NCBI GenBank assembly: GCA_938075675.1
Contig: CALJHE010000006.1
Coordinates: 124,001-188,000, forward strand
Direction of reading: 5' to 3'
From: Candidatus Poseidoniaceae archaeon
GTDB lineage: Archaea; Thermoplasmatota; Poseidoniia; Poseidoniales; Poseidoniaceae
Length of the DNA: 64,000 nucleotides
A program made the position numbers and the translations under genes. Position 1 is the stretch's first letter, and each line of letters begins with the position of its first letter. A model generated the notes under the pieces. It ran no database searches, was not told the origin of the DNA, and saw nothing but the letters and a program-made list of their open reading frames with translations. Of the stretch, positions 1-41,540 are shown piece after piece.

Positions 1-3000
1 AACCCATCGGTCGACCCAATCGTCATGGGAATGAATCCAATGTTGATTACTCTCGATGAAACAATGACGACTCCTGAAATCTACGATGCTGCTCCATCAA
101 CCGATGAAGTGCAAGTAGGTGGGAACATGGTTCGCTATCCTGTCGCAGAAGGGTTTTCTCTCGACTATACTGTTCAGAGCAACCAACTCAAGCAGAATTT
201 GATTGTCAATGAACGTCCAATTCTCAAGGAAACCGATGCTTGGTTTGGATTCTCGGAACTGGTGCAACTTCCTTCTGGATTCGCACTCTTCCTCGGAGAA
301 ACAATGCTTGGGGAAGAAATGACTCAAACACAAGAACCTCTTGACATTCGAAACACTGAAACTGGACAATTGCTCGCACAAATCCCAGTTCCAGTTGTTG
401 TAGAAGAAGGCAATGCAGCTGAGCCATATACGGCAACATACTTCATTCAAGTCATTGATTCGCAAATTATCATTTCCACTCTCGTTGAGTCGGACTGGAT
501 TATGTCTGATGACCGCGCATTCCCGCTGGCCATTGACCCAACCATTCAAGTCTCTAACGTAAACAGTGGTTACTGTTACAAGAACTACAACCGATGTTAC
601 ATGGCTCGTACGACCACATACCTACAAAAGGGACAATCTTCATGGTCGTCTTACAACGCCAACGTTAACTACTACCTGCCGTTCAATTCGTTTACATTTA
701 CGACCTCAAACCAACTGCCAAACCAGGCAGTCGTTGAGTCGATTTCACATTACCAGACATGGACGTACCAAACAGGTGCGACTACGGCAAACTCCGTTGC
801 TGCAACAGTTCTACAAGACTGTGGCTCTCCGACCTCCTCCGGTATGCCTTACGGCTGGACTATGCCTGCGGCACCTACAAACGGTTGTTCAAACACCCTT
901 GCATCCAGTGCTTACGCATCTACCAGTACAATGTACAACAACGGCAACTCACGAAAACTCATCGCTTCGATGTGGAACAGTGATTCCTTTGATACAGTGA
1001 CTCCAGCATACTACTCGTCAACTACTGCTGACGTTTGTACTACGAACGCTACATGTGCTACAAGCACTCAAGCAAGTTACATCACAGATGCGCAGAACGG
1101 TAGTTCAACCATTGCTATTGGATACAAAGTCCCAGGAAACACTGGTTATACTCGCGCATACCACTCCAATGGAGGAACCACGAACTCTTACCTAAGTATC
1201 ACCTACTCTGGTGGAGTTGACACTGATGCACCGTCTTCAGATTTCATTCCTTACCACAACGTCACCTCGTACATCGAAGGTTCACGAACCTTCTTCACCA
1301 CGCTGTCTGACCTGTCAAACATCGATACGACTGCAAACAACAAACCTACGCTCAATTACGCACTCAATAACGGTTCGTTCACGAGCGTGAGTGCAACAAG
1401 CATTGGAACATGTTCAACAACTGACGCGACCTGTCAGTTCCGAGCAACAACTCCGACGATATCTGCAGGCGACTACGTCGAATATTACTGGAAGTTCCAA
1501 GACCTAAACTCCAATCCGAACATTGGATTCGATCCGGCATTGAGCGGCGCACAAACGGTCCCAACACCGTACAACTTCACCGTCGAAGATGTCGAAGATG
1601 CAGGAGATGACAAAAAACTCACAGTGCTCATGACTGATGTTCACGCAGGCAGTTATTCGAGCCCATCAGCAAATCAACTCATCGATCGACAATTCACACA
1701 CTTTGACGGAAGCGATGAATTCTACTTTGAATTCGATGTTTCTACTTGTGGAACTGGGTCCAGTCAGTGTTTCTTCACTGGTTCAAACTGGGATGCTCCT
1801 AACTACTACTTCTACAACAACTGGATGGGTCAACACGCAACTGTTGCTGGTTCAGGGTCAAACGGAATGGGTTCATCTTCAACCCGCTCGAACACCTTTG
1901 AGCACATGACTAACGACGGCGGATATCTAACAATCTCTGCTGACAAAGGGCCAGGCATGAACTTGCTTTACCTCTATGATTCAGGTAAGAATGCCTTTGC
2001 CATGGTTGGTATCGGAAGCTCTCCTTCAATCGACAGCAAATTGTCAGGTGGAAGCCAAATGGATGCAAGTTATGCCTATGGTAACTCCCCTGCTTACAAG
2101 ATCACACTGGGTTCTGACTCAGCAATGACTGCAGCAGGTGAAGAAACATACGGTGGACAAATGGGCCTCTTCTCGTTTGGTAACGCAACTGGTGGAGCGG
2201 GAATTAACGCAAACCGACTGTGCGTAACTACAAACGGTTTCGTTCACTTCTTCCGAAGTCCATTCGCTAGCCGCGACCAATGTTCAGGTGCCTACTACTA
2301 CGGTGGTTCGTACTTCAGCGGCGGTACAACCGACGAACGAGCTCTCCCATCATATGTTTGGTCGGGATGGGTACACGCAATGGGATACTACGGTTCCCAG
2401 GCTGCAAGCGGTACGCAAACATACAAGATTGGCGGCGTTGCTCCAATTCCTGACACCTTTGCGCCAATCGCAGATCACTCCGCACTTTCGGACTCCCACA
2501 GCAAGGACCGAACCATATCGGTGGTTTTGTCTGATGGTGGAGACCCACCGACCGGTTTGAACGTCAGCACAACTGCTGGTGTTGGGCCAACTCTGTATTA
2601 CAGAATCACCAGTGCAGACGGCACCACCGGTTCATGGACCAGTAAACTTCTGACTCCACAAGGTAGTTCAACTCGAGCCCAATGTGTTCTGTCCGCATGT
2701 ACTTGGTCTGCAGATCTTGAAGACCTGGAACGCGAAGACTCAGTCGAATACTACCTTTACGCTGAGGACACATCTCAAGTGGCATCAACCGTTAACAGTT
2801 TGACAACCAGCACCGAAACATTCAGTGTTGGAGACCCAAACAAGATGTTCATTGTTGAATGGAGAGACATGCAATACACCAACAACAACTTCCGTTGTAC
2901 ATTCCAAGCCGTCTTCTACGACGTCACGAATGAGATTGAATACCACTACGACGATGCTTGTAAGAACTCTTACGACGCAGCCACTGTCGGATTCATGGAT

Positions 3001-6000
3001 CAAACACGATCACATGGACAGACAATTCGTCACAGAACGAGTACTTCGTACCTCAACGGAGCAAACCCTCACACCAACAACTACCGTATTACTACGGACA
3101 GTACAGACGGCGCTTGGGAATCCTTCGACAGAGGAATGAATCCAATGGTTAACGGTATTGAAACGGATATCATGGGTACCAGCGGAGGAACTCCATCTGG
3201 ATACTACTGTTCATCGAGTTACTACTTCCGAACTTACGGCTCTCAATGTGCTGATAACATTGCAATGCCAAATGGATTCAACTTCACCTACTTCGGAACC
3301 GATTACAACTACACGGACAGCAATGACCGCATTAACATCGAGCGACATGGAAACATGCATTTCGTTAGCAGCGGCTCAACAGCAAATGTCCGTGCTATGA
3401 CGACCTGGTACGGCAACATGCCTAAGTTACCATACTCGTCGAACGTTGCTGCACCTGCAGGATTGATTGCCCCGTATTGGTCGTACTATGGATCATACTA
3501 CTGCTACCAAAACACTGCAGTCGATTGTGGTGTTTACTACCGAACAATGCCATTCGAAGGCAAGGGTACTGATGTCACATCAGATATCACATCCGACACA
3601 ACGTGGGATGTTGAAGACAGTCCAGTTCGAATCAACCCGGCTGGTGACTATTTGACGATCTCTGCTGACCTCACCATCCAACCAGGTACAGTTATTCAAG
3701 TCGGCGCAGGTAAGGGAATTTCCTTTGACGGCGCTTGTGACAAGATGACAATCAACGGTAACAGCACCGACCACGTTCTCTTCGAAGGGCTTGGTGGCGC
3801 AGATTGGAAGGGTATGGCATTCACCGGAGCTTGTTCGACAAGTACCGATAACCGCCACGTCTTCTCCTATGTTGACTTCAAGAACACAACCGATGCTGCA
3901 ATCGCTGCAGGTTCTCGCCACGGCTCGAGCCCAATCAGCAATGCAAACGTAGGTAACTTCACAATGAACCACGTGACTTTCACGGATGTTGGTGCAGCTT
4001 TCGAACACGGTAGCGGCCAAGGAACAGTTGTGTCGATGACCGAATTCAGTGTCGACGGAACTGATGATTCATGTTTCGACTTCGCTGAAGACACTGTTGC
4101 AACTTTGACAGAAGGAACCATTGCGAACTGTAACAAAGACGGTGGTGCCAACAACGGCGCAATCGTTAACGTTGCGGGTTCAACAGGCGGTTCTCTCTTC
4201 TTGGAAAACACGACAATTACCAACGCATATGTGAACTTGATCAGTGTTGATCTGGACATGGTTACCATTTCCAACGTCACCGCTACGGCAACAAACGCCC
4301 AGTCCGGGTCTGCCCTCAATTCAGATGCAGGCGCTGGTGCAGAAGTTGAAATCTTCAACTTTGATGCAACAAACTATGCCTCTGTCTCTATCGATGCAAT
4401 GGGCTCAATCTTGATGACTGATGTCGATGTAGGAAGCGCTTCAATGAACTTCTTCCCTGGTGGTAGTACCACCTCCTCGACAACCGGTGCGTTCGGAGAC
4501 AATGCAGTCTTCGATACAGTTACCGCAGGCAACATGATCATGCGCAACTTGCAACCTGGAACCTTTGATGATATCAGTGTTGATGATTTGAAGATTGAAG
4601 GTGACACTACGAACTCCGACATGGTCTTCATCAACAACCTTGATGTTGCGCATTTCGAAGTGACTGGTTGCAGTGGCTGGAATGTAGGAATCAATTCCAT
4701 GACTGCAGAACGCGTTACCACAAACGGATGTTCCGCAGCAAAGAACTCGGTTCTCATTGCCGACTCGACTATTGCACACACCTCAGCACTTGATTCAGCC
4801 GTTTATGCACGATATTCTGATGTCACAATTGGTGAAACTACCATGACATCGACGACAGCAGGAACTGGAAGCATTTACCTCGCACAAGCAGACACGAACT
4901 CAAACATTCGTCTCATTGAAGTTACCCAAAACGGTGACGATTGCGCAAATGTAAACGGTGGAACTGGAGATTGTGACGTTGATGTCGCATCTTCATCCTC
5001 TGAGATTTGGTACGGTGGATTGTCAACAGTTCGAACATATCGAATTGCTCTTGTCAACAACGTGCCAACGAACATCTACAAGTCTGGACATACCGTAACT
5101 GCTGCAGTTACGGACAGTTCTGGTTCTGAACTCTTTGAAGTTGGAAGTCACATCACTGACACAGCCTCGTCCAACCTTGGAACTGCAAGTGTTTGGGTTA
5201 TCACCGGCGACGAATCTGGCGGAAACACCTACTCGGACCACAACATCCGTGCATTCGGACCTGCAGGTCAAAACGAAACAATGACTTCCGCTTCCTGGTA
5301 TCCAACAGCTGGATTTACCATTGGTAGTACGATTGACCTCTTGCTCGAACCTGCTCCTGTAGATTTCGATCAAGCAGGTATGGACTGTGCTTGGATGGAT
5401 GCCTATGTTGACCCATCGAACGGAGGACAATTGCCAACAAACGGTACAACTGCTAACGGAAACACAATCTTCGAATTTGACGGAACACCGATGACACTTT
5501 CGGCCGACCTAACGCTCGACGGTTGTGTCATGATTCTCAAGGGTTCATCGCTTAAGGTGAAGAGCACTGCAACCAGCAGTCCTGTTCTTACACTCACGAA
5601 CGGTGGCAAAGTAATCGTATCTGTTTCACCAGATACCGGTGCAGTCGGAGCTATTAGTGCAGTTTCACCTTCATATGGACTCAACTTGGACATTGTTGCA
5701 GGAACTCTAGAACTCGACGGCGGAATAGTACGTGATCTCGCTCAAGATTCAACCACAGACTCCGCATTGTACATCGGTGATGGGGCCACTCTCAAGATGA
5801 TGGATGGTGCATCGATTTTCGGCGCATCTGCAAACTCTGACGATATGGCTACTGTGAAAATCGACGGTGGAACAGTTAACATTGCTGATTCTTCAATCGT
5901 AAACACCGGTCAATCCGGAACAGCTCTTTGGGTTGAAGCATCTGGCGGATTCATCGACAATGTCGTTGTCAAGAACGCTGCTGTTGGTATTCAATCTTTC

Positions 6001-9000
6001 AACGGTGCTCCACAGGTTGACGGCTTCACATCAACAGACAACACCGTGGGTGTTGATATCTACGGTGGAATGTCCCTACCTACAATTTACCGAAGCACAT
6101 TGCTTAGCGGTGAAAGCACAGGATGGACGACCTACAAGATTGACTTGTCGACCTTCCTCGGTGAGGATTTCTTGCAAGTCGGTATGAACAGTATCTTTGG
6201 CGGTGGAAACGCTCACCCAAGATACAATTACGGTACCACAAAGTACTACATGATTACCGATCGATACAACATCGAATTGGAAGACGACAATGGAAACACG
6301 TGGAACATCACTGATGCAGATGACCTTGGTTACTACCCAATCAGCGCCGCTGATCCGAAGTCTGGTACGCCTGGTTACGCAACCTATGCGCCTGGTGCAG
6401 TCGGTGGTGTCCCAAGTTTGGATTGTAACACCAACGGATACGCTTACGGGCCAAATTATCCATCAAGCTCGATTGGTTATTACTACCAGATCTGGTCACA
6501 ATGGGCAGGTTCCACCCCTGGATATCCTGCTTACTATGAATCCAAGCCTCTTGAGTTCGGTTTCGACTGGGAAAACATCGAAGATGTCTCACCAACAGGT
6601 TACTACGCATACTACCCTTACCACTATTGGGGTGCTTACTACACTACTTACCACGCAATGTACAACCCAGTCTTCTATCCTCCTGAAGGAATGCAAGGAA
6701 GCTACAACATTTGTTACGACCGTGCTTACACTTACTACATGAGTCCTGGACAAGGTGCTCGAATGACCATGCCGACCATCGACATCTCTGCTTCTAACCT
6801 CAGCAAGGTTTCGTTGTACATGGACGTTCTTCACAACCGTGCAGACAACTACCAAGACCGTTTGGAAATCGTTGCCCGCTCGGGTGACAACGCAGCACTA
6901 CTTGGTGCCTACGCTCGTGAATCCGGTACTCCGCTCTTCAAGGATGGAACGATTACTGGTGCAGACACTGGAGTGTCCATTGGTGGCGCATTCGCTGCCG
7001 GACACATCCAAGATGTTACCGTTACAAACCCAACCGATTCAGGTATGGAAGTCTCAGGTCAAACTGCAGCTACAAGCGACGGATTAACCGTTACTGGTGG
7101 AGATTACGGTATTCTAGTTGGTAACTCAGCATCTGGTTCCATGGACTTCATGAACATTGATTTCGATGGAAATACCAATGCAGGTATCTACTACACGAAA
7201 GATCTCGCAGGTGATATGTCTGGAACCGTTGAAAACAGTGGAACTGCATTCAAGTACGGTGCAAACACTGCAAATGATGTCTCCTTCTCGGATGTCACCA
7301 TCTCGACCAACGCTGTTGGTGTTGAAGCAAGCGGTACTGGTGATTTCACCTTTACCAATGTGACAATGGGTAACACGAAGGATTTCTCAATAACCGGTCA
7401 ATCGAACATTGAGTTCATCGAAGGTACTGTGGATTCGACAACCGTCGATGTCACTGGCGTTGGTGAGTTCACTCGAAAGCGATCTATGGAAGTTGAGTTG
7501 CTCGCCGACACATTTGCTGTCTCCGGCGCAACGGTCACATTGATTGACGCTGATGGTGGTGCTGCTGGATCTGGAACTACGGACTCCAACGGTATCGCAG
7601 AAGGATTGAACTTCATCACTGCTGTCGTTGATAGCAATGGATTGACAATTCCTTCCCTCGCAGGATACGAAGTAATGAGTGTTGCAGAAATCGACTACTT
7701 CTACACAACCAGTACGAACAACAAGGCTGACTTCCGCTATGCCACCCAAGGCGTAACACTTACTGACGTTTCAGGGAACAGTGCAACGGTGCCACTTACC
7801 ACTCAGATTTCTGAGCGTGTATGCTGGTACTCAACCAGTTCTGCTTACACAACCGTGACTCCTTGTGCGGGTTCATTCTTTACGAGTGGAACACGTACCT
7901 ACGACGATGGTAACGGTGGAACGGTCAATGAATACGCATACTCGAATTCCTTGACGATCAACCAACAAGGCAACACCATCATGATGGACGTGCCATACAT
8001 CTACCTGAAGTCAAACACACCTTACAACTTCAACGGATCGACTATTCTATCCACTGGTGCATACGATTTCTATGACTCACAACGTTGGTACACAAATTAC
8101 CCATACGGTGGCGAAGTTTACATGAACGATGCTGCTCTATATGGTGTCACTGTCAACGATGACACCGGTGGCATGTACGGTATCGAACTTGGTTATTATG
8201 GTTCTCCTATTACCACATTCGTGGCAAACAATTCCATCTTCTCCAACATTGCGAAGATTGAGTCACAGAACGGATACACATGGGGTTCGAGCAACCAATA
8301 CATTTGGGAAATTGAAGAATTCTCTGTCACGAATTCAACAATTACTCACTTCAAGGGCTATACTGCACTTAACAATGCAATCCAGAACACGGACATGTGT
8401 ATGGTTCTATCCGGTGGCGAAGGTTCAGTCGTGAGTGATAACATATTCAACGACTGTGGCGTCGGTGTTGAACTCACACGTTCACCTTATTGGAATCGAC
8501 ACGGAACGAATGTAGGAGTAGACAATGTCACAATCTCGAACAACGTCTTCAATGACGGTGGAGAAATTGCTGATATCTGGCTCTACCGTGACGGTTCGAG
8601 CGAAAACGCATTGATTTCGGGTAACATAATGAACAACGGTGGTGCAGCAGTTGCAGCAATTGGGATTTACGACGGTGGACACACTGGTACAATGATTACT
8701 GGAAACACGATCAATTCAGTGACCGATGGAATTTACATTGATAATGCATTGGATTACCGTGTAACTGGCAACACCATCAACGGAGCTGGAGATTCTGCAT
8801 ATACTGCAATCAGTACCGTGGAAGGCTACGGTGATATTGACAACAATACCATCGTTGATTCAGATGGCGGTATTGTCGTCGACAGTCCGACATCTCCTCC
8901 TGCGCCAACAACTTCGTTGTGCAGTATCTCGAGTAATTCCTATCGTTACTCCGCATCATGTACTGCAACCCTCGGTGTCGGTAAGACGCTCGATATCAAC

Positions 9001-12000
9001 ATCAGAACAGACTCTTGGGGCTATGAAGCAGCTATTCAGATTACCAAGCCTGACGGAACAACCGATTCATTCGGCCGTGGAACAAGTTCGACCTTTGCGA
9101 GCAACACTGCGTATACGCCACTTGCAACATACACTGCTCCAGGCGTTTACCTTCTTGCTCTGACAGACTCGTACGGTGACGGTGGTACAGATGTATTCAT
9201 GGTCGAAGGCGGAATTGCTGCTGGATACACCGGACCAACTCTTGCTGACAACTCGATCAGCATATCTGCTGGACGCACAGCACCAAGCGCTGTTGGACTT
9301 GTACTGGAAGACTGTGATGGAGTGAGCATTAATACCGCTCGTAACACCATTACTTTGTCTGACATGGCAATGGACATCGACAACTGTGACGTTACTGATC
9401 AATCCTCGGTGCTTACCGGTAACGATGATTCCACAACTGTTGGAATTGATTCTGACGATGCTAGCGGAGACACACTTACCCTCAGCGGTACGACAATCTC
9501 TGGATACGCAACAGGTGTCGAGAAGACCAGCGGAGAACTCATCCTTACAGGTGATGCATCCATCTCTGGTGACGACTACGGTGTCTATGTTGATGACGCA
9601 ACTGTTGTAGCGATTAACGCTGCAGTAGATGGTGGAGCAACCGGTACCGGTCTCTATGTCGTTGACAGTGATGATGTATGGGTATACCCAATGAACGCTT
9701 CCGGATTGGTCGGAATGTACGTCGAAAACTCACCATTCCGTTGGGATGGAGGAACATCGACTGCTACGACAACCATCGAAGTCGTTGAATCACAAGGTAG
9801 TGTTGAAAACATGACTTGGACCACCTCCTCGACTCAGATTGATGCAGGAAGCAACGCCTACGTTACATCGATTGGTAACACAATTGATGAAAACAAGCTG
9901 ATTGTCGACTCATCTGCAACTATTGATGAAGCAAACTTGTTCTCGATGGATTCAACCCACTTGAACGCTGCTCCAACAAATGAAGTTGCAATGATGATTA
10001 AGTCTACTGACGGTACACGTGCATCCTATGTTTCGACAACCTTCCAACCAGAAATCATGAACGTTGATGGTTCAAACGATGACTGGGTTGGTGGAAACGC
10101 CCTCAACCCATCTGGCTATGCAATGCCAGGTCTCATGAGCGGTAATGGAACAAACGACATGCTTGTAACGTACATCGAAGGCGATGATCTCTACATTGGT
10201 CTAACCGGTGAAGATCTTGCAGCAAGCGATGTTCTCATCTACCTCAGCGTTGATGGCAGCGGAAGCAGCACAGGATACAACCTCGGCGGATCTCACGAAC
10301 TGCCATTCCAAGCAAACTACGTGCTTTGGGCAGACAGCGAGACATCCTATGACCTGTACAGCTACGGTTTCCTCGGATGGGGTGCAACCTCACTCAGCTC
10401 GGCTACCGTTGATATCGCATCCACATCTGGATTGACTGAAATTTCCATACCGTTCTCACGAATTGGTGGAACACCAAGTCAGATTGACATCGTCGCAATC
10501 GTTCAAGGTGAATCGACCGCTGATGTCAGCACAGTTCACCCAACTCAAACGATCGATGCTTTGAACACGCTTCAGGACTTCTCTGAATACATCACTGTGG
10601 AACTCAACCACGATGATTTGTTGACTGGAGAGATTAATGATGAAGTGCTTGTTTACCGCTCATTCAAGGGTACAACCACTCCGAGTGTTGCTAAGAACTA
10701 CGATGTTCTCATCAAGACCGAAGCAGATTGTGAATACGATTGGGAAACTGCAACAGACTTGTCTCTTGCTACCAATGTCGCAATCACACTCGACATGGCT
10801 CGTGCTTGTCCTGAGATTCAATCGACTCTACAAGACATCACAGTTGCGGAAGATTCTGGCGCTTACACATTCAGCCTGACCAACATGGCAGACGACGTGC
10901 AAGACCTCGAAGCTGACCTCACATGGACCTCAGCAGCTGGCAACCTTGTCGCATACGACAATGTGCTTGTTGATTGGAACCAAAATGGACAAACTGTGAC
11001 CATTACTCCGCTCGATGACCAATTCGGTACTCTCGATTACGAGTTTGAAGTCACTGACAGCAATGGTTTGACAGACAAGAAGAACATCTCCTTCATTGTC
11101 ACCAACGTGAACGATGCCCCGGTAATCTGCAACGTTGAAGACGCAGGATGTATGCCTATCTTCTCCTCTGATGATAACTTCGACAACATCCTTGCAGAAG
11201 GATTTGGAACACATACCAAGGATCTCGGAGACGTTTCAAACGCTTCCAAGTCCTACATCCGTGACATGGCAAACGAACAATCACCTGTTCGCCAAGTCTA
11301 CGATTGGGATGCATCTGTTGACTCGACTTGTATCGCGTTCAGTGTTGAAGTGAACACACTCAACTCGCTTATCATTACCGAGAACACTTCCAACGAAAAG
11401 GGCGGTTCATGCACAGTTACGCTTGAACTCTCTGATGACGGCAACGAAAACACCGATGCTATACCGTACACAGTCGACTTCTCAGTCGCTCCAGTGAACG
11501 ACGCACCTGTGATTACCTTGCAAGATGTTGACGGACAGAACTTGTTGGTCAGTGATGCTGGAAGCCGTGCAAACGGTGAAGGTGAATTCATCACCATGAC
11601 GGAAGACGACACCAATGTTGACAACCTCACTTGGGATCTTCTACCATTGATGAACGATATCGACCACGATGTTCCTGCAGACCTTACTTGGACTGTTGAG
11701 CCAACTGCACAGTGTGCATACACCAACTACTTCACAACGGCAATCGTCGGAACTGATTTGGTCTTCACACTGATTCCAGACGCAACCACAAACGGTTACG
11801 ATTGGGAAGTTGATTACATGAACGACAACGGTATCCACCAACTACGACCTGCTGGCCAAACTTTCTGTGCCATCAACTTGGTTCTCAAGGATACTGCTAC
11901 CGCACCATCACACACGCCTAACTACGACACGACTGTCCTCAACTCAGCATTCACTGAGCAACTGGCACCGTACGCTCAAGGCCAAGATGATGTTGTGATG

Positions 12001-13320
12001 TATGTCACAATTGATCGTGTTGCAGAGAACGTCGCAGACTACTCACTTGACACAACATCTGGAGTGAACTTCAACGGCATTACCAACATCATGACTGGCA
12101 CCTATGTTCCTGTTTCAGTGAACATCGATGCTGGTGGCGATGAAGGACCATACACGTACGACCACATGTTGGCAGTGACCTTCCACACAGATGGACACAC
12201 TGAAGAAGAAACCACACGATACTACAACGTTCCTGATTACGGAACAACGTTGACTGTTGAGGAATACATCTTCATGACCAAGGACACGACCAAGGTAGAA
12301 GTTTCAATGGATGTTCTAACATGTTTGAACAACCCATGTGACCTCACTGTTTCATCCAGCGAGCGATTCCAATCCGATGACCCTGAGTCCCACCGTGCAA
12401 ACAACGGCGGTTCCCAAGGTGCTCTTTGGTCCTCTCCTGGTCAATATGGACAGAATGCATCGCAGACCTCGGAACGCCGACCAATGCTCGAAGACAGTTT
12501 CTGGTGTAACAACCGAATGACGACCTTGGACCTTGCAACAGCTGAAGCAAACAGCGATTGGGGCAAGTGTAACGAATACGCATCTGGCTCAGGTTCCTTC
12601 GGAGCAACTGGACAGAACCTACCGATCGTTGTCCGAACCATTGGAGCAAGTTCTGTTCCATCGTTCGCACCAAGCATCGTTGTGGTCAGTCTAACTGGCT
12701 TGTTTGTCAGCGCTCTTGCCTTCTCCAGCCGCCGTGCTGACGATGAAGAAGAAGTTGTTGAGAACAAACTCGAAGACGACGAAATGGCTGTGAGCCCAGT
12801 TATTGCTACCATCCTTATGGTTGCAATCACAGTGGTTCTTTCTGGTGTCATCTATGTGTGGGCAAGCAGCCTCGCAGAAACTGATGTCAAGGGTGTACCT
12901 CGAGTCACCTTTGCTATCGATGATGTCAACAGCTTTGATGTCGACGAAGGCCACTGGAGAATTACAGTTCAAGCGTCCGAAACTGACTTGGCAACCCAAG
13001 CAGTCGAGGTTCGTGTGTTCTATGTTGATGCCAACGGTGAGGCACAAGTAAAGACAACCAATCTAGCAGATACTGCAGGCGTTTATGGGTTCAATCCTCA
13101 GAACAGTGACTCTATGGTTACGTTCGTGGACCAAGTGAATTCTGAAGGTGATGACAAGGTTTCGACCTTTAACACCGGTGACACAATCTTTGTGCGCACG
13201 CATGACACTGACGGAACACCACTTGAAGATGTGACCATCTCCTTGAACTACGCACCAAGTGCTGGTCAAGGTGCGCAACTTCGTACATGGTCTGGCTTGT
13301 CTTACGACATCAGCGCTTGA
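1..13320 (+). CDS. Giant secreted surface protein with beta-helix and cadherin-like repeats and a C-terminal pilin-like module (5' partial)
   Basis: The frame is open from base 1 and the first ATG (25) is not followed by a signal peptide, so the gene starts upstream of the window; at least 4,431 residues lie here. The N-terminal part has an AFPLAIDPT motif, typical just before DNRLRE-type domains. Residues of about 1195-3300 carry many short Asn/Thr/Gly-rich repeats (NITNSTIT-like), as in right-handed parallel beta-helix surface proteins. Residues of about 3600-3980 hold tandem-95/cadherin-like units ending in NVNDAPV. A membrane segment (about 4212-4235) is followed by an Arg pair and an acidic stretch (DDEEEVVENKLEDDE). 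The last 178 residues (from 4254) begin MAVSPVIATILMVAITVVL, the archaeal type IV pilin/archaellin-like N-terminal helix. The role is probably adhesion or cell-surface structure; substrate unknown. Repeat structure and anchoring are seen; function is inferred. Confidence 0.85.
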   Translation, partial: NPSVDPIVMGMNPMLITLDETMTTPEIYDAAPSTDEVQVGGNMVRYPVAEGFSLDYTVQSNQLKQNLIVNERPILKETDAWFGFSELVQLPSGFALFLGETMLGEEMTQTQEPLDIRNTETGQLLAQIPVPVVVEEGNAAEPYTATYFIQVIDSQIIISTLVESDWIMSDDRAFPLAIDPTIQVSNVNSGYCYKNYNRCYMARTTTYLQKGQSSWSSYNANVNYYLPFNSFTFTTSNQLPNQAVVESISHYQTWTYQTGATTANSVAATVLQDCGSPTSSGMPYGWTMPAAPTNGCSNTLASSAYASTSTMYNNGNSRKLIASMWNSDSFDTVTPAYYSSTTADVCTTNATCATSTQASYITDAQNGSSTIAIGYKVPGNTGYTRAYHSNGGTTNSYLSITYSGGVDTDAPSSDFIPYHNVTSYIEGSRTFFTTLSDLSNIDTTANNKPTLNYALNNGSFTSVSATSIGTCSTTDATCQFRATTPTISAGDYVEYYWKFQDLNSNPNIGFDPALSGAQTVPTPYNFTVEDVEDAGDDKKLTVLMTDVHAGSYSSPSANQLIDRQFTHFDGSDEFYFEFDVSTCGTGSSQCFFTGSNWDAPNYYFYNNWMGQHATVAGSGSNGMGSSSTRSNTFEHMTNDGGYLTISADKGPGMNLLYLYDSGKNAFAMVGIGSSPSIDSKLSGGSQMDASYAYGNSPAYKITLGSDSAMTAAGEETYGGQMGLFSFGNATGGAGINANRLCVTTNGFVHFFRSPFASRDQCSGAYYYGGSYFSGGTTDERALPSYVWSGWVHAMGYYGSQAASGTQTYKIGGVAPIPDTFAPIADHSALSDSHSKDRTISVVLSDGGDPPTGLNVSTTAGVGPTLYYRITSADGTTGSWTSKLLTPQGSSTRAQCVLSACTWSADLEDLEREDSVEYYLYAEDTSQVASTVNSLTTSTETFSVGDPNKMFIVEWRDMQYTNNNFRCTFQAVFYDVTNEIEYHYDDACKNSYDAATVGFMDQTRSHGQTIRHRTSTSYLNGANPHTNNYRITTDSTDGAWESFDRGMNPMVNGIETDIMGTSGGTPSGYYCSSSYYFRTYGSQCADNIAMPNGFNFTYFGTDYNYTDSNDRINIERHGNMHFVSSGSTANVRAMTTWYGNMPKLPYSSNVAAPAGLIAPYWSYYGSYYCYQNTAVDCGVYYRTMPFEGKGTDVTSDITSDTTWDVEDSPVRINPAGDYLTISADLTIQPGTVIQVGAGKGISFDGACDKMTINGNSTDHVLFEGLGGADWKGMAFTGACSTSTDNRHVFSYVDFKNTTDAAIAAGSRHGSSPISNANVGNFTMNHVTFTDVGAAFEHGSGQGTVVSMTEFSVDGTDDSCFDFAEDTVATLTEGTIANCNKDGGANNGAIVNVAGSTGGSLFLENTTITNAYVNLISVDLDMVTISNVTATATNAQSGSALNSDAGAGAEVEIFNFDATNYASVSIDAMGSILMTDVDVGSASMNFFPGGSTTSSTTGAFGDNAVFDTVTAGNMIMRNLQPGTFDDISVDDLKIEGDTTNSDMVFINNLDVAHFEVTGCSGWNVGINSMTAERVTTNGCSAAKNSVLIADSTIAHTSALDSAVYARYSDVTIGETTMTSTTAGTGSIYLAQADTNSNIRLIEVTQNGDDCANVNGGTGDCDVDVASSSSEIWYGGLSTVRTYRIALVNNVPTNIYKSGHTVTAAVTDSSGSELFEVGSHITDTASSNLGTASVWVITGDESGGNTYSDHNIRAFGPAGQNETMTSASWYPTAGFTIGSTIDLLLEPAPVDFDQAGMDCAWMDAYVDPSNGGQLPTNGTTANGNTIFEFDGTPMTLSADLTLDGCVMILKGSSLKVKSTATSSPVLTLTNGGKVIVSVSPDTGAVGAISAVSPSYGLNLDIVAGTLELDGGIVRDLAQDSTTDSALYIGDGATLKMMDGASIFGASANSDDMATVKIDGGTVNIADSSIVNTGQSGTALWVEASGGFIDNVVVKNAAVGIQSFNGAPQVDGFTSTDNTVGVDIYGGMSLPTIYRSTLLSGESTGWTTYKIDLSTFLGEDFLQVGMNSIFGGGNAHPRYNYGTTKYYMITDRYNIELEDDNGNTWNITDADDLGYYPISAADPKSGTPGYATYAPGAVGGVPSLDCNTNGYAYGPNYPSSSIGYYYQIWSQWAGSTPGYPAYYESKPLEFGFDWENIEDVSPTGYYAYYPYHYWGAYYTTYHAMYNPVFYPPEGMQGSYNICYDRAYTYYMSPGQGARMTMPTIDISASNLSKVSLYMDVLHNRADNYQDRLEIVARSGDNAALLGAYARESGTPLFKDGTITGADTGVSIGGAFAAGHIQDVTVTNPTDSGMEVSGQTAATSDGLTVTGGDYGILVGNSASGSMDFMNIDFDGNTNAGIYYTKDLAGDMSGTVENSGTAFKYGANTANDVSFSDVTISTNAVGVEASGTGDFTFTNVTMGNTKDFSITGQSNIEFIEGTVDSTTVDVTGVGEFTRKRSMEVELLADTFAVSGATVTLIDADGGAAGSGTTDSNGIAEGLNFITAVVDSNGLTIPSLAGYEVMSVAEIDYFYTTSTNNKADFRYATQGVTLTDVSGNSATVPLTTQISERVCWYSTSSAYTTVTPCAGSFFTSGTRTYDDGNGGTVNEYAYSNSLTINQQGNTIMMDVPYIYLKSNTPYNFNGSTILSTGAYDFYDSQRWYTNYPYGGEVYMNDAALYGVTVNDDTGGMYGIELGYYGSPITTFVANNSIFSNIAKIESQNGYTWGSSNQYIWEIEEFSVTNSTITHFKGYTALNNAIQNTDMCMVLSGGEGSVVSDNIFNDCGVGVELTRSPYWNRHGTNVGVDNVTISNNVFNDGGEIADIWLYRDGSSENALISGNIMNNGGAAVAAIGIYDGGHTGTMITGNTINSVTDGIYIDNALDYRVTGNTINGAGDSAYTAISTVEGYGDIDNNTIVDSDGGIVVDSPTSPPAPTTSLCSISSNSYRYSASCTATLGVGKTLDINIRTDSWGYEAAIQITKPDGTTDSFGRGTSSTFASNTAYTPLATYTAPGVYLLALTDSYGDGGTDVFMVEGGIAAGYTGPTLADNSISISAGRTAPSAVGLVLEDCDGVSINTARNTITLSDMAMDIDNCDVTDQSSVLTGNDDSTTVGIDSDDASGDTLTLSGTTISGYATGVEKTSGELILTGDASISGDDYGVYVDDATVVAINAAVDGGATGTGLYVVDSDDVWVYPMNASGLVGMYVENSPFRWDGGTSTATTTIEVVESQGSVENMTWTTSSTQIDAGSNAYVTSIGNTIDENKLIVDSSATIDEANLFSMDSTHLNAAPTNEVAMMIKSTDGTRASYVSTTFQPEIMNVDGSNDDWVGGNALNPSGYAMPGLMSGNGTNDMLVTYIEGDDLYIGLTGEDLAASDVLIYLSVDGSGSSTGYNLGGSHELPFQANYVLWADSETSYDLYSYGFLGWGATSLSSATVDIASTSGLTEISIPFSRIGGTPSQIDIVAIVQGESTADVSTVHPTQTIDALNTLQDFSEYITVELNHDDLLTGEINDEVLVYRSFKGTTTPSVAKNYDVLIKTEADCEYDWETATDLSLATNVAITLDMARACPEIQSTLQDITVAEDSGAYTFSLTNMADDVQDLEADLTWTSAAGNLVAYDNVLVDWNQNGQTVTITPLDDQFGTLDYEFEVTDSNGLTDKKNISFIVTNVNDAPVICNVEDAGCMPIFSSDDNFDNILAEGFGTHTKDLGDVSNASKSYIRDMANEQSPVRQVYDWDASVDSTCIAFSVEVNTLNSLIITENTSNEKGGSCTVTLELSDDGNENTDAIPYTVDFSVAPVNDAPVITLQDVDGQNLLVSDAGSRANGEGEFITMTEDDTNVDNLTWDLLPLMNDIDHDVPADLTWTVEPTAQCAYTNYFTTAIVGTDLVFTLIPDATTNGYDWEVDYMNDNGIHQLRPAGQTFCAINLVLKDTATAPSHTPNYDTTVLNSAFTEQLAPYAQGQDDVVMYVTIDRVAENVADYSLDTTSGVNFNGITNIMTGTYVPVSVNIDAGGDEGPYTYDHMLAVTFHTDGHTEEETTRYYNVPDYGTTLTVEEYIFMTKDTTKVEVSMDVLTCLNNPCDLTVSSSERFQSDDPESHRANNGGSQGALWSSPGQYGQNASQTSERRPMLEDSFWCNNRMTTLDLATAEANSDWGKCNEYASGSGSFGATGQNLPIVVRTIGASSVPSFAPSIVVVSLTGLFVSALAFSSRRADDEEEVVENKLEDDEMAVSPVIATILMVAITVVLSGVIYVWASSLAETDVKGVPRVTFAIDDVNSFDVDEGHWRITVQASETDLATQAVEVRVFYVDANGEAQVKTTNLADTAGVYGFNPQNSDSMVTFVDQVNSEGDDKVSTFNTGDTIFVRTHDTDGTPLEDVTISLNYAPSAGQGAQLRTWSGLSYDISA

Positions 13321-13356
13321 GTTTAATCGCTTAAGTGATGAGAAAACGGACGCATT

Positions 13357-13380
13357 GGGGAGGGGTTTGATCCCCTCCCC
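13357..13380 (+). terminator. Perfect 9-bp hairpin after the giant gene
   Basis: GGGGAGGGG, loop TTTGAT, CCCCTCCCC, then TTT. It begins 36 nt after the stop codon of the giant gene and is the first of four consecutive hairpins. It may protect the mRNA 3' end or assist termination; the T-run after it is short. Confidence 0.55.
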
Positions 13381-13391
13381 TTTGTCTCCCG

Positions 13392-13426
13392 CATCCCTTT
13401 GATGGGATGACTACCTTTCGAGGTAG
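13392..13426 (+). other. Two adjacent small hairpins, the second with a TTCG tetraloop
   Basis: CATCCC-TTTGAT-GGGATG (13392-13409) is followed by one base and then CTACCT-TTCG-AGGTAG (13411-13426). The first reuses the TTTGAT loop of the preceding hairpin. The second has a UUCG tetraloop in RNA, known to be exceptionally stable. Function is not determined; they lie in the 3' untranslated region of the giant gene. Confidence 0.5.
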
Positions 13427-13440
13427 AGAGCTACACGATC

Positions 13441-13492
13441 GCAGGGGGTTTCCTTACGGGGCCCCCTGCCTTCGTCCTTTTTTTTATTTTTA
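13441..13492 (+). terminator. Hairpin plus T-tract terminator
   Basis: GCAGGGGG pairs with CCCCCTGC across a 13-nt loop (13441-13469), followed within 10 nt by eight consecutive T (13478-13485) and a second T-rich run. Archaeal RNA polymerase terminates at T-tracts, so this is the most likely 3' end of the giant transcript. It lies about 60 nt upstream of the next start codon. Confidence 0.65.
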
Positions 13493-13553
13493 TTCTTACT
13501 ACGGTTCCGAGCGAACCCTTTCAAGTGATGAGTCTAACAGGATATTGATACTC

Positions 13554-14234
13554 ATGTCAAATGCCTCAGAAATCCCCCTTACAAAGTGCGTTGTTTTCGA
13601 TTGTGATGGAGTCCTTGTTGACGCCGTAAGTTCGTGGAGAACCTTGCATGACCATTTTGGTACAGATAACTCTCTTCATCTCCAACGTTTTATCCGTGGA
13701 GAAATCACTGACGTTGAGTTTATGCGTTCGGATATCCAGATGTGGAAGGCTGTCCAAGACCCAATCTATCGTGATGAATTGTTTCGAGCCTATTCGGGTG
13801 TGAAACTTATGGATGGAGCACGCGAAGTTGTTGAGGAATTGCAGTCGAACGGTGTGTTCGTAGCAATAGTTAGTGCCGGTGTAGATTTGTTTGTCTCATC
13901 GATTGCTGCAATGCTCAAAGTCGACGATTGGATTGCAAATGGTTTTGTTTTCAATGATGATGATTCACTTTCAGACGAGGGAGTATGTCGACTTCATGCA
14001 ACTGGTAAGGGGGATGTCGTCCATCGTTTGTTACAGATGAATAACTTAGAGGTTGAAACATGTGTTTCAGTTGGTGACTCTGAAATGGATTTGTCGATGC
14101 ACGTCGATGGCAGCAGGTTCATCGGTTTTAATCCGACACGCGACTCTTCCATTGCAGCATTCAACGATGCGGACATCGACGTAGTCCACGGTAAGGATTT
14201 GCGTGCAATACTTCCGTTCCTGCGTTTGCAATAA
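13554..14234 (+). CDS. HAD-family phosphatase, phosphoserine phosphatase-like
   Basis: A soluble 226-aa HAD hydrolase. Motif I is FDCDGVLVD (residues about 15-23, nucleophile and acid/base Asp), motif II is the Ser in IVSAG, the conserved Lys sits in TGKGD, and motif III/IV is VGDSEMDLS. The cap between motifs I and II is helical, as in the phosphoserine phosphatase branch. The longest ORF starts at 13407 but would run through the terminator hairpins, so the ATG at 13554 is chosen. It converges on the DP1 gene with no spacer. Substrate is not certain: phosphoserine or another small phosphomonoester. Confidence 0.82.
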   Translation: MSNASEIPLTKCVVFDCDGVLVDAVSSWRTLHDHFGTDNSLHLQRFIRGEITDVEFMRSDIQMWKAVQDPIYRDELFRAYSGVKLMDGAREVVEELQSNGVFVAIVSAGVDLFVSSIAAMLKVDDWIANGFVFNDDDSLSDEGVCRLHATGKGDVVHRLLQMNNLEVETCVSVGDSEMDLSMHVDGSRFIGFNPTRDSSIAAFNDADIDVVHGKDLRAILPFLRLQ

Positions 14235-29816: not shown

Positions 29817-29946
29817 TGGTGCCGGGAGCGGGGCTTGAACCCGCGACCTTCGGATGTCTCAGACACCGCAAGGGGTTTGCACGTCATACGATTGCCTTGT
29901 AGGCTGCCCTATGAGTCCGACGCGCCACCAACTACGCCACCCCGGC
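29817..29946 (-). tRNA. tRNA-Met (elongator, anticodon CAT) with a 54-nt intron and encoded CCA
   Basis: On the minus strand the acceptor stem is GCCGGGG/TCCCGGC (one G-U pair), the T-arm GCGGG-TTCAAGC-CCCGC, and the anticodon CAT sits at 29911-29913. The anticodon stem is TCGGA/TCCGA. The intron (29856-29909) follows position 37. CTCA pairs with TGAG as a 4-bp central helix flanked by the 3-nt bulges TAG and ACA, and an inner helix GGCA/TGTC closes it: a canonical bulge-helix-bulge for the archaeal splicing endonuclease. The spliced loop is CTCATAA. CCA is encoded at 29817-29819. It is not the initiator, since the anticodon stem lacks the three G-C pairs. tRNA-Ile2 (CAT, modified) is a less likely alternative. 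Confidence 0.92.
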
Positions 29947-32157: not shown

Positions 32158-32295
32158 GGACTGGTGTCGTTGCCGAGCCTCCTTGAACATTCTCCTCGCC
32201 AGCGAAGAGATTCCGATTGCATTTGCCCAACTTTTTCATTCTCTCAACAGTGATGCGTAATGTGTTTTCATGATGCTCAAGCGAAAAGACAGTAT

Positions 32296-35200
32296 ATGGA
32301 GGTGGGCTTGAAGGCTCTGAGCCCCATGCTACGCGAGACAGCCCCCCGCCGAACCGCTTTAACCGTCTTCCTTGTTTTGATGTTCCTTTTCGCAGATTTA
32401 CTTCTGCCTCAGTCTATCGATTTTGAAAAGGAACTTGACGATGAACCTCGTATATCTTACGTTACTTCAACGGATACAGTACTGTCTGATACCTACATCA
32501 TGGAGGCAAACCCTTCAAACAACTACAATGCATCCGCAACAGGTTTTCTTGGAACTTCTATGGATGGATACGAATCAAGAATACTACTTGATTTTGCAAT
32601 GAATTTTTCGTCGGCAGACTCGATACAGTCGGCAACTTTGAACATTGTTTGTGATGCAAGTTCTTCATCTGCAGCAACAATGAACATTTATGCGGCATCA
32701 TCGAATTCATGGAATTCGAGCACAGTCTCCTGGTATCAGTTCGACATGGGTATGCCATGGGGCGAAGCAGGTGCTGATGGCGCAAACGACCGAAGTTCTT
32801 GGGAACCGCCTTTTAGAGCGATGACCAATGGCACATATTCGCTCAACGTCACAGCGTTCGCACAGGAAGCTGCCTCGAACAACGAATCCCATTTTGGCGT
32901 TCTGCTTTCTGGCCTTGGTTCACACTTTGAGTGCAAGATGTCAGAATCATTCCCCGTAACTGACCGTCCCGAACTCGTCATGGTTACCTCCTCAACTGCA
33001 GCAGGAAACGGTGGCTCAGTTACCTCCAACTTTGCTACAGATGGAATGCCATTGATGGCCGGCGGCCTCGTCTTGGCGGCAGATACAGCTCCTACTCTGT
33101 CCTATGAGTCACTCATTGGGGCACATGTGGAATTCCAACTTTCCCTCGATTCTACTTTCAAAGATTACAACGATTTGGATTGGCATTATTCAACACTCAG
33201 GAACAGTTTCTCAACCACAAGTTCCAGCGGAACATACACCGTTCCATCATCTGACCGTTTCGACAACGGAACTCGTATATTCTACCGAGTTCGCAGCGTT
33301 GATACAACCGATACACTCAGCGAATGGTCGTCAACCGAAAGTTTCCTTCTGCCGTCTCACACTGTGACTGACAACGGCGACGGTACGGCCAGTATCGAAG
33401 TCTCCCGTAATCAGTTGGGTGATATCGGTACATTCATTGAAGACTCGTACTCGAACGAACTGAGCAAGAATACCAAATACGGTTCTGACAGCACACTCCA
33501 AACCAGCGTAACTTCGAACAAGGAGTCACTCATCCATCTTCGAATGGATTTGAGCCTTCTTGGGCTCCCATCAAACGCAACCATCATTGATGCTCAACTG
33601 AACTTGACTCGTGATTCGTCATCCAACGACCCGATGCTTTCGATGCACGAAATGGAGTCGACATCTTGGGTCGAGTCCGAGTTGACATGGAACCGTGAAT
33701 CAAACGCAAACGGCTGGTCTGATGGAGGGCGTGTCTATTCATCGATTGCTTCTGCGACTGGATTCAACGGTACGCAGACCAGTGATGACTATGGATTTGG
33801 ATTCACCGATGTTGCGCAGTCTTGGCTTGAAAGCGGCGATACCAATGCTTCCGAGTTCTTGATTACGGCACGTGGTAAGGACGAAGCATACTCGACGACA
33901 GGTACCAAGAGTATCTCGTTTTTCAGCACCGAAGCATCTCTTGAAGACGACCAACCCTATGTCTACATTCACTACGGATTGAACTCGGGCAATCAACTCT
34001 CATCAGTTGTACTCACTGGGCCGGCCGAAGATGCAGCAGTTTGGAACCAGTCAGGTCACAACTTCACCGCAAACCTCACCCCTTCGATAACTTGGACTCC
34101 GCCGACTTCCAACAATGAAATGATCTTGCAGATGGCGACCGATGAACAATTCCGAAATGTAGTTTTGACATCCAATACCGGCATAGAAAGCGACTTCTCT
34201 CCATCCGATGGCATCCTCAACATGACAGGTGTAAACACCCTTGCTGCAGGAAATATGTATTTCTGGAGGATGGCTTACTTGGATTCTGACGGAAGATACG
34301 GGCCATGGTCCTCTTCCAACTTCTTGGTGAGTTCACTCGAAAGTACATGGCTTGGTGGTGAGCGCTCAGAATTTAGAATGAAGCACGGTAATGGGACAAC
34401 GGATGGCCTGTACCCCGAATGTCTCGATACGTACATTGACAGCGGCACTCCAAACCAAAATTACGATGAAGAATCGAAACTTCTCGTTTCTTACAACACC
34501 TATCCGATTGAAGCAATGGCTCTACTTAATTGCAACCTGCGTTCCAATCTGCTGCCCGCTGGCTACGCTGTTGAATCGGCTCAACTCTCTATGGTCGTCG
34601 CCAATACCCCCTCAAATTCACCTCGAGTCGCCGTATGGGAAAACACCCAAAGCAATTGGACCGATAGCGGTGCCACTTGGAATTCTTACGATGGCACAAA
34701 CTCTTGGGCTACCGCTGGAGCGAAAGGCTCCGAGCGCTCTTCACTGCTCGATTCAATTCAACTCGATTCATCGTATTCAAACGGCGACCGTATCTCTTGG
34801 AACGTTACATTGGGCGTTCAAAACGCAATGCGGCAAAACAGCAGTGCAGACTTCATGATTGGTATACTCGGAGTCGGCTCGGGTTCAAACCGTGAAGTCC
34901 AACTTTATCCAGGATTTGCTGCGGATGTTCGCAAACCGGAATTGACCTTCGTTTATGTCCCAGGTTCAAACGTTGTACCTGTCGACCCATCTCCAGTCTC
35001 ACCGCTCAACGGCTCATGGTCCATGGGCACGGGTGTTGACCAAACACCGATTAAGCGACCAACGCTGGAATGGTCCTTTGGAAACGCCGCTGGTGTTGCT
35101 GGCTGGGCAGTTCAACTCGATACCACTGATTCATTCGATTCAGCATCTCTTCTCACGCGCACCTCATGGAACGATGGTGGCTTTGACTCAACCAACTTCA

Positions 35201-38200
35201 CCTACACGCCAACCTCTGATTTGGACGATGGTGCAACATGGTACTGGCGAGTTCGTGCAATTTCCGCAACCAACCAAATCGGTAACTGGTCCAACATATT
35301 CACCTTTTCAGTGCCAGACCTTACAACTTGGCAAACCTGTGTTGACGGCTCGTGTGCATCTGTAGAATTGCATCACAGAGAGGCCATGCCTGATTTGAAT
35401 TTGCCGAATTTTGTTGACACCTATGTCATACAGTCTGGTTCAGGTTCATCCAATACTTACGACACATCAACTCAACTGAAAGTTGGCGCAACCAGCAACA
35501 ATGTGCAAGCGCTCTCTCTTCTTCGAATCCCATTGAATTCTCTTCCTCAGCCAACGAATGCTCGCGTTACTGGTGCTGAATTGAATTTGTATTCTGAGTT
35601 TTCATCAGCGGTCGGTGAACCAATCGCTATCCGGCCAGTACTCCAAGCGTGGAATACTTCGGCGAATGGACTTATGTTTGACGGCGTGAACAACTGGTCG
35701 CAAGCAGGAGGGCGTGGCCTTGGAACCGACCTAGGTCCGTACGTCGACCTGCAGGATTCGGTTGCTTCCGGATGGATGAATTGGGATATCACTGAGGCCG
35801 TTCAAGCAGCACTGGATGCCGGCTCATCGACGCTTTCCTTAGCCATTTACGCTTCAAACGACATCACATCGTACTCCAATGGACCCAATGTGGTGACGTT
35901 CACTTCGACGGACGGAACATCTGCTCAGCATCCTTGGCTGAACCTCACATGGTCGAACGGTACGGGAACTGTTCCAGCCACACCCGGCATAAACGCTGGT
36001 CCATCGAACGATTCCATCTCATGGGATTCAAGTTCGCATGCATTGCTCGCAGAGGAAATGCCTCTGTTCTCATGGAATTATCCTTCATCGGTCGCTGCTG
36101 ACGCATGGCGAATACACATTTTTGCTGACTCTACGGATGATATGGCAGGTCGCTACACTTTCGATTCTCGTGATGATCCAGACTTGTTCGATTTGCCAAA
36201 CAAGACGTTCCAACCGACTTCCCCAGTTGACTACTCTCAAACGGTTCGGTGGACCGTTCAACCAATTAAGCTCGGTATGATTGGTCCTCAAAGCACCTCC
36301 ACTCTTTTCCACGTTCCAGATGTTGATTCAGCAGAAGTTGACGCTACACATGCATGGGTCTCTCTCCAAGAAGGGGCGATGGTCGAAGGAGAAGGATATC
36401 CAATGATTACATCGGACACAACACTTGACGGTGGCAATGTATTCAACAACAACGGGGCCTCAGCGGGTCTTCTTGTGGGCCGTAGCCCATCGAACAGTTT
36501 GCTTCGGACCAGTTCACTTATCGAAATAGATTTCTCGTCTTTCCCACTGCCAGCAGTTTACGAAATTACGAATGCGACTTTGACACTTACTGCTTTTTCT
36601 GGAAGCGGTGAAGTGTATGTGACCGTTTCAGAGATGATTACCAACTGGAATGAGTCATCGAGTTGGGCTTATCCAGGTAACAATTCTACCTCATGGGTTG
36701 GTGTAGGCGCATACCAATCCGCTGACTCTATGATTCCAGAGACTCACGGCTTTTGGATGAATGAAACGGCGGATTTTGAAATCAATGTTACTTCCATGCT
36801 TCAACATGCTGTTGAAAGAGGCCAAGAGAGCCTCAATATTCTATTGCAAGCTGAAGACGCTTTCGGAACCGTTGCAGGAACATACTATATCGCCAGCAGC
36901 GAGAACTCGGCCATCGATGAGCGTCCAAAACTCACGATTGGATACGAACTCACATCACCATGGAGTCCAACAAGTCCCTCAAACCTCGAACCTCTGGATG
37001 GATCCACACTTTGGAACCTTTCCTCTCCGATACCCGCTGGAGCAGAGACTGTGGAAAGCAATTGGACCTCATCATCTTCAAATCAAACGCAGTGGGTTCT
37101 TTGCGGTGCGTTCAATTCGAGAATGACAGAAGGCCTTGAATGCTTCAATTCCACCGCACTCTCCTATGATTCGGACCTCGACATCACTTGGGATGCCCAA
37201 AACCTCTCTGTTTTCGTTGAAGGTCTTGAGCAGGCTGACGAATGGAAGTATTGGCGAGTCCGTGGCGACCAAGACGACCGGATTGGTCATTGGTCAACGG
37301 TTCATAAGTTCCGTATTCCCGATGTAAAAACTTCTGATGCTTCATCTGATGGACTCGGAAATTACTCGGTAACGCTCTCACGTGGCTCGCTCTTTAGTGA
37401 AACTGGCCTCCTTCCAGCAGTTCCAGATGCTGAGATCTCATCCTCGGCTACAACCTCTCTCGGTTTATCGAGCCAACTGAATATAGGGACTTCTGCATCT
37501 GGAACCGGTGAAAGTCAAGTTCTGCTTGAATTCGATTTGAGTTCGCTTCCATGGCCCGCTGCAATAACGCCAACATCGATGCTTCTCAGTTTGTACCGAA
37601 CCAGCGTGACTGGTACTTCAGCAACAACAGTGTCAGTACATGCATGTTCACCGTTTGTTGAAGCAACCGTCAACTGGAGCACGAATGTATCGTGTCAAAA
37701 CAGTGAAATTACTCGTTCGACTCTCACTTTGAGCCCTGCTTCTGGTTGGGCTTCTTGGGATCTGACAAGTCTAGCGCAGAGCAACATCGCCAATGGAAAC
37801 CTCACCATGACCATCTTGCTGAAGACTGTTGGTGCACCTGCGACAAACCATGCTTTCTACTCGTCAGATGGAAGTAATTCACTCCTAAGACCGAAGCTCG
37901 TTATCGATTATGTGGACAATGTTAACGGCGTATTACCACCTGCTCAGCCAACACTTAACACGCCTCAAGATGGTTCAGTACTCTACAATGTGTCTGGCTC
38001 AGTTCTCGAATCGAACGACCGTCCAGTTCTTGTGTGGTCTCCAGTATCGGGCGCCACTGGCTACATTCTGACCATCGCTAATGAAACTGGTGTCGTCAAA
38101 TACAATTCATTGGATTCCTCGGAAATTACCGGAACGACCTTCCGCTTTGCCAACTCACTACCGAGCGGTGAAGTGTTTACATGGTGGGTTCAAGGCATTA

Positions 38201-41499: not shown

Positions 41500-41540
41500 A
41501 CAGCAAATCATTGATACACATTGACGAGGAAGTTGAGCAC

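Follow-up and report, generated by a model that had tools for sequence, protein, structure and literature searches.

The array of four hairpins that follows a giant pilin-domain gene in a Poseidoniales (Marine Group II archaea) genome of 1.89 Mb likely forms the structured 3' untranslated region of the giant-pilin mRNA and serves as its terminator. What makes this reading probable is the combination of covariation, position and synteny, U-tracts, a promoter-like block before the neighbouring HAD gene, hairpins that recur in other genera, and a pilin paralogue with a comparable 3' end. All positions below refer to the window, the stretch of 64,000 nucleotides of contig 6 that was analysed.

The giant surface-protein ORF occupies positions 1..13320 of the + strand and extends beyond the window, giving an open frame of 4591 aa in the genome. 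At its C-terminus, a TM segment leads through a charged linker into an archaeal type IV pilin domain (PF07790 Pilin_N, aa 4263-4307), all fused in frame. The first hairpin of the array, P1, starts 27 nt after the stop codon of this ORF, and the last, P4, about 115 nt after it. Downstream follows a gene for a HAD-IB phosphoserine-phosphatase-like hydrolase (13554..14234, +), which is found next to the array in all array-bearing relatives examined. The pilin region of the giant ORF is matched in 193 of 319 Poseidoniales genomes from both families, often within a giant open frame. Contig 6 also carries, at about 85-88 kb, an archaellum-type cluster in which two archaellin-like genes lie in tandem.

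Four perfect stems of 9, 6, 6 and 8 bp lie inside 113 nt (13357-13469) and are followed by eight T; stem lengths, span and T-tract are all as the original prediction had described them. Stem 1 pairs GGGGAGGGG (13357-13365) with CCCCTCCCC (13372-13380) around the loop TTTGAT, and stem 2 closes the same loop, TTTGAT, with CATCCC (13392-13397) and GGGATG (13404-13409). Stem 3 is formed by CTACCT (13411-13416) and AGGTAG (13421-13426) with a TTCG loop, and stem 4 by GCAGGGGG (13441-13448) and CCCCCTGC (13462-13469) with a 13-nt loop. In the predicted fold of the + strand, P1 (13348..13389) consists of the 9-bp apical stem on top of basal helices, GGA/UCC and GCA/UGU, with small pyrimidine internal loops between them. 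P2 (13392..13409, +) and P3 (13411..13426, +) have 6 bp each, while P4 (13436..13474, +) comprises a CAGGGGG/CCCCCUG core, a short inner helix and a CGA/UCG base. The T8 tract (13478..13485, +) begins three bases beyond the extended P4 and is itself followed by T5. The loop common to hairpins 1 and 2, to which the original prediction had drawn attention, is present here but is not conserved in relatives, so its sharing between P1 and P2 is coincidental.

Folding of 13340-13500, a check proposed together with the original prediction, returned a strong structure with a predicted energy of -76.4 kcal/mol (z -6.7), and none of 200 shuffles was as stable. Among 280 sampled gene 3' ends of this genome, the array ranks first both by energy (-73.8 over 150 nt) and by z (-6.0). 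With this fold and this rank, the four-hairpin array is not a chance arrangement. Clusters of at least three perfect hairpins within 140 nt occur three times in a background sample of 401 kb (the window plus further sampled loci, 21% of the genome), where shuffled sequence leads one to expect 0.6.

To judge from the substitutions in relatives, the + strand RNA structure is shown to be under selection here, with a U-tract in most members. In a model-fitted alignment of 34 sequences, 96.8% of the cells are paired and 27 of the 42 pairs show double changes. Cells changed on both sides number 171, compared with 45 in shuffles, and the covariation score is 0.392; shuffles reach 0.178, and slid pairings do not exceed 0.126. 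Since a model-fitted alignment leans to the model, we repeated the count on a sequence-only MAFFT alignment. Here, 17 pairs carry double changes, with 73 cells against 21, and the score is 0.243 against 0.136. RNAalifold predicts the same stems. Double changes occur in 10 of the 15 pairs of P1, where 99.4% of the cells are paired, in five of the six pairs of P2, and at all six pairs of P3, the fastest-varying stem, whose TTCG loop is present in some members only. Conserved sequence is found at the base of P1 and in P4, and the loops of the array vary freely among relatives. P4, conserved in sequence, is a terminator-type hairpin, and runs of T4 or longer stand just 3' of it in 30 of the 34 aligned relatives. 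Covariation and conservation in relatives, on which the idea of a functional RNA had been made to depend, were thus both found, and the idea passed strongly.

G-U pairing is legal on the RNA strand alone, and a DNA palindrome would tolerate G-U and A-C equally. In the array, G-U accounts for 108 cells and A-C for 6; when wobble-dominated pairs are excluded, the numbers are 39 and 5. Because G-U lies so far above A-C, it is the + strand RNA on which selection acts, not a palindrome in the DNA, and this asymmetry is the strongest single argument for the + strand RNA as the selected entity. It also bears on the proposal that the array is a DNA-level element, be it a recombination site, a mobile palindrome, a cruciform or a protein-binding repeat. 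Tandem perfect palindromes are what such an element would look like, but the wobble asymmetry, a single copy per genome, vertical inheritance with fixed synteny and the lack of any match in viral contigs together render it extremely improbable. The same observations contradict the 'recombination-prone element' of the original prediction. A REP/BIME, attC or IS-type repeat was considered and rejected, given one copy at a fixed site, and a viral origin was discarded after the search of viral contigs gave no match.

Within the genus, the region was found by DNA similarity in 32 of 63 genomes. A covariance model of the array, whose E-values are rough by design, places it in 42 of the 63, each time at a single site that separates the giant gene from the HAD gene. 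All 13 divergent members examined keep the order pilin, array, HAD. A pattern derived from P4 occurs in 25 named genomes, all of them Poseidoniales or Euryarchaeota marine bins, including the MG-II chromosome CM001443. The covariance-model search across 319 genomes of the order detected the four-hairpin form in no other genus. Of 40 loci in six other genera, which represent both families, 39 have one to four unrelated strong stems (6 bp or more) in the interval between giant pilin and HAD gene; the remaining interval was wrongly bounded. The U-tract is absent from most of these loci though the hairpins are kept. A TGA apparently 'inside' the pilin of another genus proved to be merely the natural stop codon. 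Nine genomes of the genus without a model match form a sub-clade with a single long hairpin at the position of P1, which has a UUCG loop and no U-tract. P1, the hairpin closest to the stop codon, is the most persistent one within the genus. Across the order, hairpins persist, while sequence, hairpin number and U-tract turn over.

A scan with Rfam 15 assigned the array to no family at the curated threshold and returned only two tRNAs in the window. The only Rfam match of the array, RF00481 HCV_X3 (E 0.22; 21.4 bits, threshold 65), likewise describes consecutive stem-loops at the 3' end of an RNA, but was judged an unrelated chance match. On the - strand at 29820-29946, a 127-nt tRNA with an apparent intron (Rfam match 52.6 bits) was missed by ARAGORN.

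The HAD gene is as constant a neighbour as the pilin gene, and a terminator-like hairpin 5' of a metabolic gene raises the question whether the array, as part of the HAD phosphatase gene's 5' leader, acts as a riboswitch or attenuator. We consider this very unlikely. An alternative pairing between the arms of P1 and P4 is not conserved: 63-70% of its cells pair, with 0-8 compensating cells, compared with 99% paired and 56 compensating cells for P1 itself. A mutually exclusive antiterminator pairing for a HAD riboswitch was rejected on the same grounds. Furthermore, the pilin stop codon lies just 27 nt 5' of the array, and the probable promoter of the HAD gene is located 3' of it. This candidate promoter is the conserved block GCGAACCCTTTCAAG (13511..13525, +), 28 nt 5' of the HAD ATG and present across most of the genus; its TT[CG]AA core is enriched upstream of gene starts, and the assignment, probable but statistically weak, serves as a lead only. 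The exact motif GCGAAGCCTTTCAAG, searched in the window as a general promoter, is not more frequent than by chance. Scans for sigma-70 promoters and simple terminators also remained at chance level, such scans being uninformative for archaea.

The original prediction also considered a small RNA. One measuring about 140 nt, either expressed from its own promoter or cut from the giant-pilin mRNA, and acting in trans or binding a protein, appears rather unlikely. It would agree with a compact, strongly conserved fold that has its own terminator, with sequence conservation at the base of P1 and in P4, and with the abundant ncRNA Tan1 (229 nt), which is known from related Marine Group II archaea (PMC5069720). 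However, no conserved promoter-like block was found from the stop codon to P1, there is no clear synonymous-site constraint upstream, the loops of the array are unconserved, and one sub-clade retains a single hairpin. Synonymous change toward the pilin stop codon displays no slowdown hinting at an internal promoter, the last few codons apart; for the last nine codons, the synonymous value is 0.92, resting on four sites. Tan1 and the array, set beside each other by description only, are both structured RNAs of the same archaeal order, but Tan1 comes from Thalassoarchaea and is longer, at 229 nt (PMC5069720).

In our best reading, the array would terminate pilin-type mRNAs and stabilise their 3' ends; this is preferred over a role specific to long transcripts and over a recombination element. 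The array would be transcribed together with the giant gene. P4 and the U-tract would mark or cause transcription termination, ahead of the HAD gene's own promoter, GCGAACCCTTTCAAG, from which that gene is probably transcribed. P1, P2 and P3 may act as stacked barriers that shield the coding region from 3'-to-5' decay, and P1, 27 nt past the stop codon, should stay free to fold during ribosome termination. As in a terminator, a GC-rich hairpin occurs soon after the stop codon, and a U-tract stands right after the last hairpin.

Archaeal termination is directed by U-tracts with aCPSF1 and does not strictly require a hairpin (PMC8716108), which we counted against the terminator reading. The array resembles the U-tract terminators read by aCPSF1/FttA in that T8 and T5 follow it directly in the window, and differs from them in that the hairpins are conserved while some lineages lose their U-tracts (PMC8716108). 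Termination cannot be the whole function, because hairpins persist where U-tracts are missing. The '3'-end protection structure' of the original prediction fits the position of the array, the hairpins kept without a U-tract and the lack of an alternative pairing, from which we infer the protection itself.

In bacteria, clusters of hairpins have been described as intrinsic terminator units (PMC8355165). They share with the array several adjacent hairpins in about 80 nt after the stop codon, and a U-run that is helpful but not always there (PMC8355165). The reported clusters mostly contain two hairpins, larger ones being increasingly rare (PMC8355165), whereas the array is archaeal and has four individually covarying stems in conserved order.

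The array had also been proposed to serve a transcript over 13 kb. Two genes of the same genome do not support this. No array follows the window's second giant gene (3' end z -0.45), and a short pilin gene that stands alone is closed by two hairpins and T11. What such 3' ends share is therefore a gene of pilin type and not a large transcript, and transcript length was rejected as the reason for the array. The second giant ORF (3079 aa, window 32260-41499) overlaps an ORF of 931 aa (41448-44243). At most of the 18 loci examined in relatives, the stand-alone pilin gene is followed by a first hairpin (about 7-8 bp), a GAGAGCC-like linker, a second hairpin (up to 14 bp) and a U-tract 5 to 12 long. 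Compensatory changes are visible in these tandem hairpins. GAGAGCC also precedes P4 in many giant-pilin arrays. In a Red Sea study, the strongest start sites of Marine Group II include that of a gene with a pilin domain (PMC5069720). One speculative extension, which we hold to be unlikely, is that the pilin-type genes of Marine Group II share a 3'-UTR module of tandem hairpins, a GAGAGCC-like linker before the last hairpin, and a terminator. Such a module, either recognised by a dedicated protein or set free as RNA, could coordinate pilin expression or the placement of the mRNA at the membrane.

As a structured RNA family, the array is clear and uncurated; it stands at the end of one of the largest genes of abundant, uncultivated ocean archaea. 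It offers a concrete case of compensatory mutation maintaining hairpins that are considered unnecessary for termination in archaea, with the U-tract present in some lineages and missing in others. What the hairpin and what the U-tract contribute to an archaeal 3' end can thus be tested separately.
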